The notes below the pieces were generated by a model that saw nothing but the letters and a program-made list of their open reading frames with translations, was not told the origin of the DNA and did not search any database. From Clostridiales bacterium (GTDB lineage Bacteria > Bacillota > Clostridia > Christensenellales > Aristaeellaceae), in contig SVHC01000008.1 of assembly GCA_015056055.1 (NCBI GenBank), forward strand, positions 1 to 64,000: a stretch of DNA of 64,000 nucleotides. Direction: 5' to 3'. A program made the position numbers and the translations under genes. This document shows, piece by piece, positions 3,854-39,578 of this stretch (its first letter is position 1; each line of letters starts with the position of its first letter).

Positions 3854-4735
3854 ATGGCGAGAAATCGGCTGAAAAAGTTCGGAGTTTTTGATTTTGTATG
3901 CTATCTGCTGGTAACACTGTTGTCGCTGATTTTCCTGTACCCGGTCGTTTACGCACTGAGCATCGCCCTGAGCGACCCGATGGGAATTCGTGAGAAGGCT
4001 GTAATGCTTTGGCCGGTGGGATTTTCGCTGGAATCTTTTAAATACCTGCTGGAAAAATCCGAAATCTGGATGTATTATAAAAACAGCGTTATCTACACTG
4101 TGCTGGGTACAGTGATCTTCCTGGTGGCGACCTGCATGATGGCGTTTCCCTTCACCAGAAAGGATTTCCGCGGCAAGACCGTGCTGAATGTGTTCATGGT
4201 CATTACCATGTTCTTCGGCGGCGGTATGATTCCCACGTATTACATCATCAATATGCTCGGTTTGCGCAATACCATCTGGGTTATGGTGCTGCCGGGCTGC
4301 GTATCGGCCTATCAGGTTATCGTATTCCGTACGTTCTTCCAGGGACTGCCCGATTCGCTGGTTGAGGCAGCGTATATCGACGGCGCAGGGCATTACCGCG
4401 TGCTTTGGCAGATCGTAATTCCGCTGTCCAAGCCGTTGCTTGCAACGTTTGCGCTGTTTACTGCGGTGGCAAAATGGAACGACTGGTTCGCTCCCCTCAT
4501 TTACCTCAACAAGGAAGAAATGCAGACCATGCAGATCTACCTCAGGCGAATGCTGATTGAGGACGTTGTTGGCCAGGGTAAAGAAATGAAGTACATATTG
4601 GAATACCAGAACAGAAATCCGATTACCATCAAATACGCCAGCGTATGGCTGGCCATCCTGCCGATCATGTGCGTATATCCGTTCCTGCAGAAGTATTTTG
4701 CAAAGGGTACGGTCGTAGGCGCAATCAAAGGATAA
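3854..4735 (+). CDS. Carbohydrate ABC transporter permease (LplC/MalG-like)
   Basis: This 293-residue membrane protein is the second half of the channel. It has about six transmembrane segments and an EAA loop reading VEAAYIDGAGHYRVLWQIVIP near residue 175. It starts 17 nt after the first permease with GAGGAGG before the ATG. The C-terminal KGTVVGAIKG is the usual ending of LplC-type permeases. It is the last gene of the operon; a terminator hairpin follows within 20 nt, and that hairpin is duplicated around an inserted element. Confidence 0.93.
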   Translation: MARNRLKKFGVFDFVCYLLVTLLSLIFLYPVVYALSIALSDPMGIREKAVMLWPVGFSLESFKYLLEKSEIWMYYKNSVIYTVLGTVIFLVATCMMAFPFTRKDFRGKTVLNVFMVITMFFGGGMIPTYYIINMLGLRNTIWVMVLPGCVSAYQVIVFRTFFQGLPDSLVEAAYIDGAGHYRVLWQIVIPLSKPLLATFALFTAVAKWNDWFAPLIYLNKEEMQTMQIYLRRMLIEDVVGQGKEMKYILEYQNRNPITIKYASVWLAILPIMCVYPFLQKYFAKGTVVGAIKG

Positions 4736-4751
4736 AATCTTGGACAAAGAC

Positions 4752-4779
4752 AACACCCGCAATATTGATTGCGGGTGTT
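4752..4779 (+). repeat. Terminator hairpin, left copy of a 28-bp direct repeat
   Basis: AACACCCGCAAT, a short loop, and ATTGCGGGTGTT form a stem. The same 28 bases recur at 5027-5054 on the other side of the 247-bp element. This copy, next to the permease gene, has no T-tract and runs straight into the element. Confidence 0.9.
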
Positions 4780-5026
4780 CAGTCTGTCAAAAAAGTATTT
4801 TTGCCAGACTTGTGGCGGGGAAGCAAGCTCCCCCGCCACTGCCACCCTCACCAGATTTCACTGAAATCATAAAGATTTCGGGCGTGAAATCTGCAATGTA
4901 GCGATTTTTTCTTCGGTTCGCTGGCTCTCCTTCGAAAAAATTCGCTCCTCGCGCCGTACACGCCGCCGCTGCGGATTGGATTTTTCTTTTCTAGCCTAAA
5001 CGATATTCGCGTTTTTTGACAATCAA
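4780..5026 (+). mobile_element. 247-bp non-coding element with terminal inverted repeats, inserted at a terminator
   Basis: This sequence is repeated at 39307-39553 with a single mismatch (G at 4814, A at 39341). It has 10-bp perfect inverted repeats near its ends (TGTCAAAAAA at 4785-4794, TTTTTTGACA at 5012-5021), lies between two copies of the local terminator hairpin, and contains several stem-loops: AGTCTG/CAGACT enclosing CAAAAA/TTTTTG at 4781-4810, GTGGCGGGG/CCCCGCCAC at 4812-4839, and competing GATTTCA/TGAAATC pairs at 4853-4893. No convincing protein is encoded. It behaves like a MITE or a structured-RNA element. The family is not recognised. Confidence 0.8.
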
Positions 5027-5054
5027 AACACCCGCAATATTGATTGCGGGTGTT
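5027..5054. terminator. Terminator hairpin, right copy of the 28-bp direct repeat
   Basis: Identical to 4752-4779. It ends 24 bp before the stop of the leftward mannosidase operon and is preceded by AAAA on the plus strand, so it can serve as that operon's terminator, and formerly served both convergent operons. Confidence 0.8.
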
Positions 5055-5078
5055 GTTTGTTATGAATTTGAATTTTGC

Positions 5079-7520
5079 TTACAGCTCCAGCAGGTTGACT
5101 TCCTCAACAGGCTGTGCGGCATCCATGGGGATGCGGAAGGTCTTGATTTCGTAGTGACCGAAATCTGCGGTGAAGATGCGGCCGATCTGCGGCAGTTCGA
5201 TGGAAACGCCTGCGGTATCCTGACCGTATGCCTCATGGCAGCGCAGGATGTAGGCGCCGCCGTCCTCGGCTTCCTTCAGTGCGGTGGCAATGATGCCGGA
5301 TTCGCTGATGCGGATACCCTCTGCGCACTGCGGGAGCTTGCCCTTGTGGTAGGTTTCATAGATGGTGTAGATGGGCGTATTCAGGCGGTAAGCGTGCTGA
5401 ACGACTTCTGCCTTGCGCCAGTCGCCTGCATGCGGGATAATGCGGAAGCGGACTTCGCGCTCGCCCTGTTCGGTGAAGATGCTGGAAGAATCGCGCATAT
5501 TTGCTTCGCGGCCAAAGTGATCGGCATAGATCGGGCTGCGCAGAACGGTCATGCGGATGACGCTGTCCTTTACGTCAACGGCGTAGTTGGAATCGTTGAC
5601 TACGGCAAAACCGGCTTCGGCATTGCTGACATCCACCCAGCGCTGGATGGGCTTTTCGGTGCCGTCCATGGGGCGGTTGATGGTGCCGTAGGGGATTTCG
5701 GCGGTGAGGGTTGCATTGTCGGCATTGACCGGGAACTCAAGCTTGAGCATCTTGTGCTTTTCGCGCCAGTTGAGCTTCATGCGCAGATCAATGAACTTGC
5801 CGCCTCTTTCAAGGATGATATCCTGTTCGAGGAGGGATTCGCCGTAAGTGAAGTACAGGCGGAGCGTTGCGCGAACGGGACCGCGATCCATCCATTCAGC
5901 CTTCTGGAATTCAAAGCGTCCGATAACATCGCGGTATTCGAACAGACCATGTCCCCAGGTATCGCTGTGGTTTTCTTCGATGATGATCGGCACGGCGCCG
6001 TGATCCTTAAGATATTCTCTGCCGGTATCCAGGCATTTGATGCTCTTGAGGAAGCCGGTTTCGGGATCGATTTCAACGGAAACATGCTCATTGCTCATGT
6101 TCCATTCGCCGATGGAAAGAACATCGTTGTCCTTCTGGGTGTAGTCGCCCATATGAGCCCAGTAGGTGGCGTAGCCCATTGCAGGCAGCTTGGCCGTGAA
6201 TACGGTGTTCCACGGGGCTTCGTTGCCGGTCTGCGTGGAGCGCACGCGCTGGTGCATGACTTCGTTGCCCTCGGAATCGGTGATGCTGGTCATGTGCTTT
6301 GCAATGGTAACGACCTGCTCAACCGGGAAGGGCATCGGGTTAAAGAGAACAATGGGGGAGCCTCTGTCCGCAAAACCCCAGAGGACGAAGGTGTTATCCT
6401 TGTTGCAGGGCAGGTTTGCATCGCCCAGCGTATCGATATTCCAGCTGATCTGCTGTGCGGCGAGGTTGTTCAGATCGTTTGCGATGTTCTGTGCATAGCC
6501 GTAGGAAGCACGTGCATCGGTGTATACTTCCTTGATGCTGCAGCCGCACATGAGGTCATGGAAGTGGTTGAACATGACGCGCTTCCATGCATCCTGCAGC
6601 TTGTCCTTCTTCTGCGGAGTGCCCAGCAGCATATTGGAAACTGCGCCCATCTTTTCGGCGGAGAGAAGGCTGGTTTCGGCAAGACGGTTCCACTGCTTGA
6701 TTTCCAGCATGGCGGAATAGCAGCCGATGGCGTGAATCTGCAGATCACCCTTCCAGATGGGCAGATCATACTTTTCCATGGCCTTGGCATACTGGCTGGG
6801 GGAGCTGTAAATCAGGTGCGGATGTTCCTTCTGCAGCTTTTCAATGTGGTTCAGAAGAGCGATGGTCGGGCCGCCGCCGTGGTTGCCCACGCCATAGAAG
6901 ACCATCAGGGGCATGCCTGCCTTTTCGGCGGCTTCGTCCATGTGCTTGTGCCACCAGTCAAAATGGTCGGGAAGGTTGATGGCGTAGTTGCTTATACGGA
7001 AACAGCGTACCTGGCTGCCGTCGGCACTTTCCCATACGGAAAGCTCGGGAATATTGGGATTCTCATGCGTGCCGGGACGCATGAATACGTAGGAATCCAT
7101 GCCGCTCTTTTTCAGAATCTGCGGCAGCATGCCGCTGTGACCGAAGGAGTCTACGTTATAGCCGATGTCACACATTACGCCGAATTTTTCAAGATAATAG
7201 CGCTGGGAATACAGGGCGTGGCGTGCGAAGGATTCGCCGCAGGGAATGTTGCAGTCCGGCTGCAGATACCATCCGTTTACGATGACCCAGCGGCCTTCCT
7301 TTACGAACTGGCGGATTTCTTCAAACATGTCCGGGCAGCAGGTTTCGATCCATTCATAGTAGGATGCGCCTGCGCAGGTGAAGAGGAAGCCCGGGAATTC
7401 CTTCAGGCGGTCAAGCGCGGAGCGGAAGGTGGATTTGATTTCGCTCATGCCCTCCGTCCACGGCCACAGCCATACGGGGTCAATGTGCGCATTGCCGATG
7501 AGGTGAAGATCGTGTGCCAT
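5079..7520 (-). CDS. Alpha-mannosidase, glycoside hydrolase family 38 (paralogue A)
   Basis: This 813-residue cytoplasmic-looking protein (no signal peptide) hydrolyses alpha-mannosidic bonds. The GH38 signature is present: GNAHIDPVWLWPW at residues 9-21, whose His and Asp bind the catalytic zinc, and YNVDSFGHSG, whose Asp (about residue 124) is the expected nucleophile, followed by the central three-helix and C-terminal beta domains. It is the last gene of a leftward operon after the GH2 gene and a second GH38 gene, 24 bp downstream of the latter. The two GH38 products are similar along their whole length (for example GMSEIKST and LPQILKKSGMDSYVF), so they arose by tandem duplication. Their substrates may differ; both keep the metal and nucleophile residues. 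Confidence 0.93.
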   Translation of the reverse strand: MAHDLHLIGNAHIDPVWLWPWTEGMSEIKSTFRSALDRLKEFPGFLFTCAGASYYEWIETCCPDMFEEIRQFVKEGRWVIVNGWYLQPDCNIPCGESFARHALYSQRYYLEKFGVMCDIGYNVDSFGHSGMLPQILKKSGMDSYVFMRPGTHENPNIPELSVWESADGSQVRCFRISNYAINLPDHFDWWHKHMDEAAEKAGMPLMVFYGVGNHGGGPTIALLNHIEKLQKEHPHLIYSSPSQYAKAMEKYDLPIWKGDLQIHAIGCYSAMLEIKQWNRLAETSLLSAEKMGAVSNMLLGTPQKKDKLQDAWKRVMFNHFHDLMCGCSIKEVYTDARASYGYAQNIANDLNNLAAQQISWNIDTLGDANLPCNKDNTFVLWGFADRGSPIVLFNPMPFPVEQVVTIAKHMTSITDSEGNEVMHQRVRSTQTGNEAPWNTVFTAKLPAMGYATYWAHMGDYTQKDNDVLSIGEWNMSNEHVSVEIDPETGFLKSIKCLDTGREYLKDHGAVPIIIEENHSDTWGHGLFEYRDVIGRFEFQKAEWMDRGPVRATLRLYFTYGESLLEQDIILERGGKFIDLRMKLNWREKHKMLKLEFPVNADNATLTAEIPYGTINRPMDGTEKPIQRWVDVSNAEAGFAVVNDSNYAVDVKDSVIRMTVLRSPIYADHFGREANMRDSSSIFTEQGEREVRFRIIPHAGDWRKAEVVQHAYRLNTPIYTIYETYHKGKLPQCAEGIRISESGIIATALKEAEDGGAYILRCHEAYGQDTAGVSIELPQIGRIFTADFGHYEIKTFRIPMDAAQPVEEVNLLEL

Positions 7521-18950: not shown

Positions 18951-20825
18951 ATGGATTGCAAACTGATGCAAAAAGCTGAAAAAAACGGAAGATTTTGTGC
19001 AGGAGCATGGCGAAAGCTTATGTGCCTTTTTTGCGCACTGGCTTTATGCCTGGGCACCGTATTTGCCGTGCCTGCAGACTCGGAAGGGGAAACAGCTTTT
19101 TGCGGGATTCCGTACCATGTGCACACGATAAAGTGCTATAAACAGCGGACAAAGCTTTCCTGCACTTATGAATCTCTTGAAGTACATAAGCATGAGAAAA
19201 GCTGCTATAATGACGAAGGATTGTTGGCTTGCGGCAAGGCGGATTATCTGGTTCATGAGCATGTCGAGGAATGCTATGACAAATTAGAACGATTGGTCTG
19301 CGCTATTCCGGAAAAACAGCAGCATACTCATGGCGAAGAATGTTATCGTATTGAAGGCGCGCATGCACATACGGCGGAATGTTATACCGAAAAGGCGGGC
19401 GAGATGGTTTGCCCGCTTGCCGAAGAGGCAGGTCATTCGCATGATGCAAACTGCTATGAGCGTGGCGCACTGCTGTGTGAGATGACAGAAAATCATGCCC
19501 ACACAAGTACATGCTATACCGAAGGCAAGTTGATTTGTGCGACGAATGAGCATGCACATTCGGATAGTTGCTACGGTTTGGGCGGTTCACCTTTGTGTGG
19601 TATTGCGGAGAACCATTATCACGGAAACGGATGCTACACGGCACCTTCGCTTCAGTGTGCGGAAGAGCACGAGCATGCGAATGGATGCTATTCTGAAAGC
19701 ACGCTTGTGTGCAGCATTGCGGAAGGGCATGCCCATGGTGCTTCCTGCTATGAACGAGTGTTGAACTGCGGCGCAGGTGAGCATTCCCACAGCGGCGCAT
19801 GTTATTCCGAGAAAATTCTTTCCTGCTCCAAACAGGAGGGGCATGTGCATGCAGATTCCTGCTATGAAAAGGCTTTGGTATGCGGTATGACCGAATCCGA
19901 AGGGCATGCGCATACGGAAGCGTGCTTTGAGACGGTTCAGGCTCTGCAATGCGAACAGCCGGAAAGCGAGGGTCAGAAGGTTCTTGCGTGCGGCGAGGTA
20001 CAGGCAAATACGCATGAGCATTCCAAAGACTGCTACGAGTTGGTCGATCCCAAGAAACTGACCTGCAAAAAGGCGGAGGATGGCGTTCATTTCCACGATA
20101 AAATGTGCTACGGATACTGGGATCTTATCTGTAAAAAACGGGTCCATGTGCATGAATTGATCTGCTATTCCGATCCGACTGCTGATCTGGAAGAACCCTG
20201 GAGATGGGAATACATTGTTTCCAAGGTTGCTTTGACCGGTGTTTGGGCGGATGATGTTATTGCCATTGCCGAAAGCCAGCTGGGCTATCGGGAAAGCCGC
20301 CGAAACTATATTGTGGAGGAGGACGGCGAAACCATCAAGGGATATACCCGATACGGCGAATGGTATGGCGCTCCGTATTCCGACTGGTGCGCAATGTTCA
20401 TTTCCTTCTGTCTGAAGTACGCGGGGGTTGAAGGAATGCCGCGCGATGCTACCTGCAGAGTATGGATAGAGGAGCTTTCGGATCCGGAAGTTAATCTGTA
20501 TTTCAAAGCAGGAACGCACGAACCGCAGAGGGGCGATCTGGTATTTTTTGACATTGACAACAATGGCAAATCCGATCACGTTTCTTTGGTTGTGGATACG
20601 GATGGCGGGCTTACGGTGATCGAAGGCAATGTTGAAAACAAGGTAAAAACGTCGGTGTATGCTGCGGATGATCCTACGATTATTGGTTACGGTGTGCTTC
20701 CGGAACAGAAAAAGGACGAGGCTGTTTTGGAAGAAGAACCCGATGCCGGGAACGTAGATGAGAATTTCCGGGCTGAATCAGATGGGCTGCGCAATTTGAG
20801 AACGCGAATGGAAGATATCAAGTAG
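18951..20825 (+). CDS. Secreted His/Cys-repeat protein with C-terminal CHAP-type amidase domain
   Basis: This 624-residue protein begins with a basic segment and a hydrophobic signal (about residues 24-42). Residues about 53-408 hold 17 repeats of H-x-H-x3-C-Y/F, such as HTHGEECY, HAHSDSCY and HVHADSCY. Most are preceded by a further Cys, so a repeat is roughly C-x(5-8)-H-x-H-x(3)-CY every 17-25 residues. Residues about 430-585 form a CHAP-like cysteine peptidase/amidase domain: AIAESQLGYRES, SDWCAMFISFC (nucleophile Cys near 480) and KSDHVSLVVDTD (His near 543). It probably cleaves peptidoglycan peptides or amides outside the cell. The repeat array could bind metal or form disulphides. The ATG at 18951 follows GGAGGG by 9 nt; an in-frame upstream start at 18861 lacks such a site. 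Confidence 0.8.
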   Translation: MDCKLMQKAEKNGRFCAGAWRKLMCLFCALALCLGTVFAVPADSEGETAFCGIPYHVHTIKCYKQRTKLSCTYESLEVHKHEKSCYNDEGLLACGKADYLVHEHVEECYDKLERLVCAIPEKQQHTHGEECYRIEGAHAHTAECYTEKAGEMVCPLAEEAGHSHDANCYERGALLCEMTENHAHTSTCYTEGKLICATNEHAHSDSCYGLGGSPLCGIAENHYHGNGCYTAPSLQCAEEHEHANGCYSESTLVCSIAEGHAHGASCYERVLNCGAGEHSHSGACYSEKILSCSKQEGHVHADSCYEKALVCGMTESEGHAHTEACFETVQALQCEQPESEGQKVLACGEVQANTHEHSKDCYELVDPKKLTCKKAEDGVHFHDKMCYGYWDLICKKRVHVHELICYSDPTADLEEPWRWEYIVSKVALTGVWADDVIAIAESQLGYRESRRNYIVEEDGETIKGYTRYGEWYGAPYSDWCAMFISFCLKYAGVEGMPRDATCRVWIEELSDPEVNLYFKAGTHEPQRGDLVFFDIDNNGKSDHVSLVVDTDGGLTVIEGNVENKVKTSVYAADDPTIIGYGVLPEQKKDEAVLEEEPDAGNVDENFRAESDGLRNLRTRMEDIK

Positions 20826-39281: not shown

Positions 39282-39306
39282 AGCCCGGCATCGTGGATGC
39301 CGGGCT
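39282..39306 (+). repeat. Terminator hairpin, left copy of a 25-bp direct repeat
   Basis: AGCCCGGCAT/ATGCCGGGCT with a short loop. The exact copy is at 39554-39578. It has no T-tract and runs into the 247-bp element. Confidence 0.9.
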
Positions 39307-39553
39307 CAGTCTGTCAAAAAAGTATTTTTGCCAGACTTGTAGCGGGGAAGCAAGCTCCCCCGCCACTGCCACCCTCACCAGATTTCACTGAAATCATAAA
39401 GATTTCGGGCGTGAAATCTGCAATGTAGCGATTTTTTCTTCGGTTCGCTGGCTCTCCTTCGAAAAAATTCGCTCCTCGCGCCGTACACGCCGCCGCTGCG
39501 GATTGGATTTTTCTTTTCTAGCCTAAACGATATTCGCGTTTTTTGACAATCAA
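39307..39553 (+). mobile_element. Second copy of the 247-bp non-coding element
   Basis: 246 of 247 bases match 4780-5026, with the same inverted repeats (39312-39321 and 39539-39548). It lies in the same orientation relative to the upstream gene and again between two copies of the local terminator hairpin, whose sequence is unrelated to the one at 4752. Confidence 0.85.
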
Positions 39554-39578
39554 AGCCCGGCATCGTGGATGCCGGGCT
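39554..39578. terminator. Terminator hairpin, right copy of the 25-bp direct repeat
   Basis: Identical to 39282-39306 and followed by TT on the plus strand. It lies 64 bp before the stop of the convergent BclA-like gene. Confidence 0.8.

Follow-up and report, generated by a model that had tools for sequence, protein, structure and literature searches.

Why should the same hairpin stand, base for base, on both sides of a short non-coding element, and what sets the length of such a repeat? The question is raised by a locus in a 64,000-nucleotide stretch of DNA from a Clostridiales bacterium (positions 1 to 64,000 of contig SVHC01000008.1), which is the whole stretch analyzed and is referred to here as the window. 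A 28-bp hairpin, AACACCCGCAATATTGATTGCGGGTGTT, which has a perfect 12-bp stem, is found at positions 4752–4779 and again at 5027–5054 (28/28 nt identical), and a 247-bp insert (4780–5026) separates the two copies. This arrangement had been described in an earlier reading of the sequence (the original prediction), and it was found to be exact. We consider it quite probable that the insert is a MITE with IS1182-type ends, which was moved in trans and whose target hairpin was copied to both sides by cutting at places set by the structure of the target.

The element, its hairpins and its copies

The insert starts with CAGTCTGTCAAAAAA (left terminal inverted repeat, 4780–4794, + strand) and ends with TTTTTTGACAATCAA (right terminal inverted repeat, 5012–5026, − strand), and on the + strand the whole element reads CAGTCTGTC...GACAATCAA. 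The two repeats are imperfect partners in the window and better matched in relatives, several of which have TTTTTTGACAnnCTG at the right end. Three structures are present from the left end inwards: a left-end palindrome, AGTCTGTCAAAAAAGTATTTTTGCCAGACT (4781–4810), which has one mismatch in the window copy and is perfect in several relatives; a G+C-rich hairpin (4812–4839, inverted pair I4); and a structured core of four helices (4849–4977, + strand, equivalent to L009:370-498). No ORF of 80 or more amino acids lies inside the 247 bp, and the ORF list contains chance ORFs that overlap the ends of the element. When positions 4730–5070 were folded as RNA, a z score of −7.74 was obtained. The neighboring genes are an upstream ORF (3854–4735, + strand), named a putative permease in the original prediction, and a convergent downstream ORF of 813 amino acids (5079–7520, − strand), which by eye we take to resemble an alpha-mannosidase.

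A terminator scan of positions 4600–5200 gave four sites (0.8 expected). On the + strand the right hairpin, which keeps its tail GTTTGTTATG, is the only terminator-like site; the left hairpin is followed by CAGTCTGTCA and was not called terminator-like. Because only the right copy scored on this strand, the left, gene-proximal copy is regarded as having no + strand tail, and the proposal that this copy had lost its T-tract fits the sequence. Judged from these letters, transcription is likely to continue across the element as far as the second hairpin.

The motif TGTCAAAAAA occurs five times in the window (0.16 expected from shuffled sequences), and four of these occurrences are the ends of two element copies. 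The fifth (20544–20553, − strand) stands alone in surroundings which look coding-like by eye, and no second element end was found near it.

The second copy of the element (39307–39553, + strand) is 99.6% identical to the first. It is flanked on both sides by another hairpin of 25 bp, AGCCCGGCATCGTGGATGCCGGGCT, which flank comparison placed at 39282–39306 on the left and 39554–39578 on the right. That the hairpin is local and differs between the two sites had been noticed before; its doubling around the second copy is an addition. The gene upstream of this copy has a match in 28/40 relatives, and 11 of the 28 homologues, 47–77% identical (homology without implied orthology), were compared. The exact end motif of the element was absent within 400 nt of the stop codon at all of these homologous loci (0/11).

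To survey the copies in the draft genome (2.83 Mb, 80 contigs), which contains 50 pieces matching the element, 40 loci were taken by element sequence alone, with their flanks ignored. Eighteen two-ended copies were obtained, 15 within contigs and 3 split across contig ends (21 loci altogether). A locus-specific hairpin is duplicated around 16 of the 18 at 80% identity or more, and around 17 at 60% or more; in the remaining copy (L021) the right hairpin is full and the left one is shortened. Based on a strict test (six Watson–Crick pairs, at most one mismatch and at most 3 nt from the element end), a hairpin is present at 15/18 left ends and 17/18 right ends versus 339/2000 random positions. 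Hairpin sites with locus-specific repeats, as anticipated for the other copies, are thus the rule, and sites of the contrary kind are not. On the other side of the account are the remaining 19 of the 40 loci, which are incomplete at one end or at both, or stop at a contig end (L013, L036, L037), and many of which look like decayed copies. The element is short and non-coding, is present in many copies, and has terminal inverted repeats and target-site duplications, the features by which MITEs are recognized.

Several copies show peculiarities of their own. The hairpins flanking L011 (G000:C40:7623-8670) agree in 26/26 stem nt and differ at 4/6 loop nt, and about 15 nt of the right end of the element recur in inverted form immediately beyond the right hairpin, as if they had come from fold-back priming. 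By hand count, the right hairpin of L019 (G000:C70:71462-72502) is nearer to the inverted left hairpin (five mismatches) than to the direct one (eight). At L040 (G000:C65:88074-89005), the duplicated stretch consists of the hairpin plus about 19 nt equal to the start of the G+C-rich part of the element. In addition, modules of about 107–109 bp (CGCAATAGTCGCCCAGCG... / CGCAATGGTCGTCCG...), likely to be a separate small repeat family, are nested beside the G+C-rich hairpin in many copies (L018, L020, L035 and L038–L044).

The left end of the MITE was also detected in 21/151 genomes of the family, from 12/50 genera. The end motif CAGNNTGTCAAAAA, counted on both strands with palindromic ends counted twice, occurs 17–51 times per genome in 10 of 11 genomes searched, versus 0–1 for a reversed control; in the eleventh (G061) none was found. 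Two sets of counts from relatives weigh against our explanation: duplication at 80% identity or more was observed for 5 of the 8 full copies counted, two others (L098, whose repeat lies 51 nt farther out, and L100) having been left out before the count, and a flush hairpin was observed at 16/24 left ends. Elements in G069 have a different core with the same ends and layout. Two ends lying 2.2 kb apart on contig C93 of G001 were considered as an autonomous copy and rejected: no transposase-like ORF was seen by eye between them, and the second end resembles the end of another miniature copy.

IS1182-family elements at hairpins

The ends of the MITE are shared with full elements of the IS1182 family. 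Its leading nucleotides are the same as those of L190 (17/17) and L189 (16/16), and the full elements L164 and L176 start with CAGCCTGTCAAAAAAGG, as the MITE does. Hairpins are duplicated around both of the latter (that of L164 is AAACCACCCGTCAAACGGGTGGTTT), and likewise around L169 and L184, whose ends are related. Four transposases tested (L164, L176, L169 and L153) scored 410–467 bits with the NCBIfam IS1182 model (NF033551), whose cut-off is 270. At L188, a single hairpin separates a MITE end from an IS1182 element. Like hairpin-targeting members of the IS1182 family, the MITE is found at palindromic targets.

A search with PF13751 (IS1182 transposase) matched 97/309 genomes of the family. 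Several observations do not favor mobilization by such an enzyme, however. The draft genome which carries the window (80 contigs) gave no match to PF13751 or PF05598. An intact PF05598 protein is encoded in two of ten MITE-rich genomes, G053 and G095, and the IS1182 elements in these two have different ends by eye (CAGACCGTTGACAAA). Conversely, no MITE match was obtained in G243 (with L164) or G024 (with L176), the genomes in which the IS has matching ends. The two hairpins flanking L156 differ from each other. Because neither the element, which has no ORF inside, nor the genome was found to encode an IS1182-family transposase, our classification of the element goes no further than a MITE with IS1182-type ends.

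We then analyzed full IS1182 elements. A scan of named genomes gave the best 80 of at least 521 confirmed loci; together with 12 of the 35 loci L153–L187 and 15 plasmid loci (L268–L282), these made up 107 loci tested. After 31 had been set aside (end motif uncaught or flank too short), 76 with both ends and flanks were left. In this set, to which the best 80 of at least 521 contributed, the hairpin is duplicated at 49/76 loci, and a flush hairpin is present at 70/76 left ends, 72/76 right ends and both ends of 68 loci, versus 345/2140 random positions. With the MITE copies described above, these data support integration guided by hairpins, as had been suggested, and structure-targeted insertion may be regarded as well supported. 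The 27 loci without duplication, in the same set with its best 80 of at least 521, speak against our explanation: 20/76 have two different flush hairpins, and at 7/76, which include the ISEfa7 site of L269, L278 and L281, at least one side does not pass the strict test. One of the mismatched hairpins, in Romboutsia, has its partner at a distance of about 3.5 kb, where a second IS copy ends on its far side; recombination between copies, or a composite element, would produce this layout. Such events may be the usual cause of hairpin mismatches.

Two further observations concern arrangement. At L279 (plasmid 2 of E. faecium isolate E7098), two IS1182 left ends are in tandem with one hairpin between them, as if two insertions had entered the same hairpin. 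Element orientation with regard to neighboring genes was uninformative, since antisense ORFs arising by chance are common (29/33 and 34/35); hence we make no claim about orientation.

Occupied and empty sites could be compared directly on plasmids. Plasmid 2 of Enterococcus faecium DO (L275) carries an IS1182 element with a copy of AGAGCGAATCTATAAAAGATTCGCTCT at each end; the left side keeps the A-tract and the right side the T-tract. The corresponding site in E. faecalis pJF3A-4253-2 (L284), which has no IS there, contains one hairpin in the continuous sequence AAAAAAGAGCGAATCTATAAAAGATTCGCTCTTTTTTT, and one hairpin is likewise present on a third plasmid without the IS (L283), its stem carrying one change. 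The original prediction had called for a single hairpin at sites lacking the insert. This is what was observed for a full IS1182 element, the comparison being one of plasmids with such an element and not of same-species alleles of the MITE; with regard to the MITE itself, the 11 homologous loci described above were without its exact end motif. With the left flank as the only query, empty sites were not found for the plasmid elements L270, L273 and L277, and for L280, among the matches listed, a further record (L286) also has the IS.

Length of the duplication and its possible origin

DDE transposases are usually characterized by a fixed duplication length, which corresponds to a fixed stagger. 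The elements analyzed here behave differently. In the set that includes the best 80 of at least 521 loci, the element-anchored duplication and the hairpin differ in length by at most 2 nt at 45 of 46 non-redundant sites, the exception (L195) having a mismatch within the repeat; in the 45 exact sites from this set, best 80 of at least 521 again included, the duplication is 20–34 bp long, with a median of 24 bp. The proposal that the repeat is as long as the stem-loop is therefore borne out well beyond the window. Most of these 45 sites are in records titled Bacillota, and some are on plasmids. It seems that, across all 45, the target's own fold dictates the length of the duplication.

A mechanism which would give this result can be outlined as follows. 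The 247-bp element would be a non-autonomous MITE on which an IS1182-family DDE transposase acts in trans. This enzyme would pick palindromic, mostly terminator-like hairpins by their shape and not by their sequence, and would join the 3' ends of the element to the 5' feet of the target cruciform. The hairpin strands would then unfold and be filled in, leaving the whole stem-loop on both sides and a duplication as long as the hairpin. Replication-linked copying, which had been mentioned as another route, is not needed.

Hairpin targeting by relatives of these elements is known. According to the available text of PMC5678879, IS1272 and TnSha1, which belong to the IS1182 family, use inverted-repeat targets of 21–85 bp without a common sequence; the portion of PMC4923244 consulted lists seven TnSha1 sites, three of which are predicted terminator hairpins, with five supported by RNA data. 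In the same parts of both papers (PMC5678879, PMC4923244), the stem-loop is deleted wholly or partly and no target duplication is formed. Both also cite Siguier et al. for palindromic targets of some IS1182 members, in the text at hand, and PMC5678879 adds that detailed data were not given. According to excerpts of PMC12056078, descriptions of IS1182-related transposition differ as to whether the target is duplicated, whether there is a deletion, and whether sequence or structure is recognized. In the records available in part, ISCaa15 and ISPse1 have 4-bp repeats, and two ISMac2-related MITEs have 4 and 0 bp; therefore, the family is not uniform. The present elements have an IS1182-family transposase and palindromic targets in common with IS1272 and TnSha1; the outcome is stem-loop deletion there, whereas here it is duplication, and a 247-bp MITE is involved.

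Attack at the 5' foot of a cruciform has also been considered before: pathway b in Fig. 13 of PMC5678879, a hypothetical route drawn beside the IS1272 deletion, predicts hairpin duplication. In the available part of that paper it is a logical alternative without examples, whereas natural examples and uninserted sites are presented here. Among open-licence PMC literature, as far as its accessible text goes, this pathway in PMC5678879 was the sole mention of whole-hairpin duplication; PMC4923244, PMC3196728, PMC10969869, PMC3281130, PMC9484755, PMC3852290, PMC12056078, PMC9208149 and PMC1781477 were compared as well. Thus, within the portions of the literature searched, hairpin targeting by IS1182 relatives with deletion as its outcome is known, and natural duplication of whole hairpins is new. 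Our elements share their ends, their transposase and the palindromic targets of some members with the IS1182 family. Because ISfinder may list long, variable direct repeats for this family, novelty is claimed only with respect to the literature searched.

A rather unlikely possibility, which nevertheless deserves serious attention, is that the target is read as duplex DNA. A flexible dimer would bind both arms of the palindrome and make its cuts at the outer edge of each, preferably at A|A and T|T steps. The base composition of the 45 exact duplications is in line with this idea: the first base is A in 35 and the last is T in 40, an A-T pair is outermost in 34, the preceding base is A in 37 and the following base is T in 35. 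The bias at the first and last bases could be a sequence preference. Moreover, in 30/45 sites the helix could extend past the duplication. Since these 30 helices could continue outside, the cut appears to fall in the A/T-rich foot of the stem, often short of the end of the longest possible helix. The suggestion of cutting at both bases of the stem is thus to be qualified: the cuts lie within this foot, and in many sites they stop short of the end of the longest helix. On the other hand, the related IS1272 is described as structure-recognizing in the parts available of PMC5678879 and PMC4923244. The arm sequences also change between sites and the total length spans a range of 14 bp, neither of which is easily reconciled with binding to duplex arms.

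It is very unlikely that a transposase of the IS1202 type, or another one with a long fixed stagger of 24–29 bp, produced these repeats, with hairpins as mere preferred landing sites and the match in length a coincidence. The IS1202 family makes target duplications of about 24–29 bp, which had suggested this lead in the original prediction, and the median of 24 bp is at the edge of that range. Its duplications share their unusual length with those described here, but their range is narrower and the transposase is another one: lengths of 20–34 bp that track the hairpin are not those of a fixed stagger, and the ends and the tested transposases are IS1182. The IS1202 reading was dropped on account of the length range and the ends, and IS1182 takes its place.

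Some data would fit a third, highly improbable reading without any target duplication, in which hairpin, element and hairpin form a fixed regulatory unit, or the repeat was created later than the insertion, by recombination or gene conversion: the core has a structure with compensatory changes, and the hairpin pairs of L011 and L019 differ only in the loop or center. However, the hairpin is specific to each site while the element is constant, one hairpin is present at sites without the IS1182 element, and all 11 homologous loci are without the exact end motif. Finally, IS1272-like replacement of a hairpin by an element bringing both hairpins, although it involves the same transposase family and the same kind of target, is almost certainly wrong, as the hairpins are locus-specific and not element-specific, and at L275, compared with L284 and L283, the target hairpin was kept and doubled where IS1272-type insertion loses the stem-loop without duplication, which refutes this reading for that element.

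Returning to insertion by structure-set cutting, we may ask how far it extends. That a large IS1182 clade and its MITEs have no fixed duplication length, take their cut sites from the target cruciform and add a complete terminator-like hairpin with each insertion is a generalization to which we would give about equal chances of being right or wrong. If true, the form in which terminator palindromes are recognized in vivo would be folded DNA, and terminators would become more numerous and be rearranged as the elements spread. Whether terminator palindromes are extruded in the cell and acted on as structures is an old question which could now be tested directly. Insertion of this kind would also explain paired identical hairpins in genomes, and would offer a rule for locating the true ends and the empty sites of such IS1182 elements and MITEs.

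The structured core

The core was aligned over window positions 4849–4977 using 30 of 31 rows, the dropped row being a chance regular-expression match in L011. In these 30 copies, 35 consensus pairs were identified, 10 of which have changes on both sides, and 98.4% of cells are paired; the covariation score was reached by 0/500 shuffles. Further pair types numbered 13, which does not exceed the average of 13.9 in the shuffles. There are 45 two-sided pair changes versus one that is one-sided (G-U). The scarcity of wobble intermediates hints that the palindromes are constrained or corrected at the level of DNA and not only as RNA, an argument which is limited by the shared ancestry of the copies.

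Rfam was considered as a source of identity for the element and gave none: with four copies and their flanks (L009, L019, L029 and L032), two matches at E ≤ 1 were obtained, both far under the cut-off. In a number of copies (L029–L034, L038, L043, L044 and L047), which have no recognizable ends, the core is kept whole or in part, often just past a stop codon by eye, and it may persist beyond mobility for a reason.
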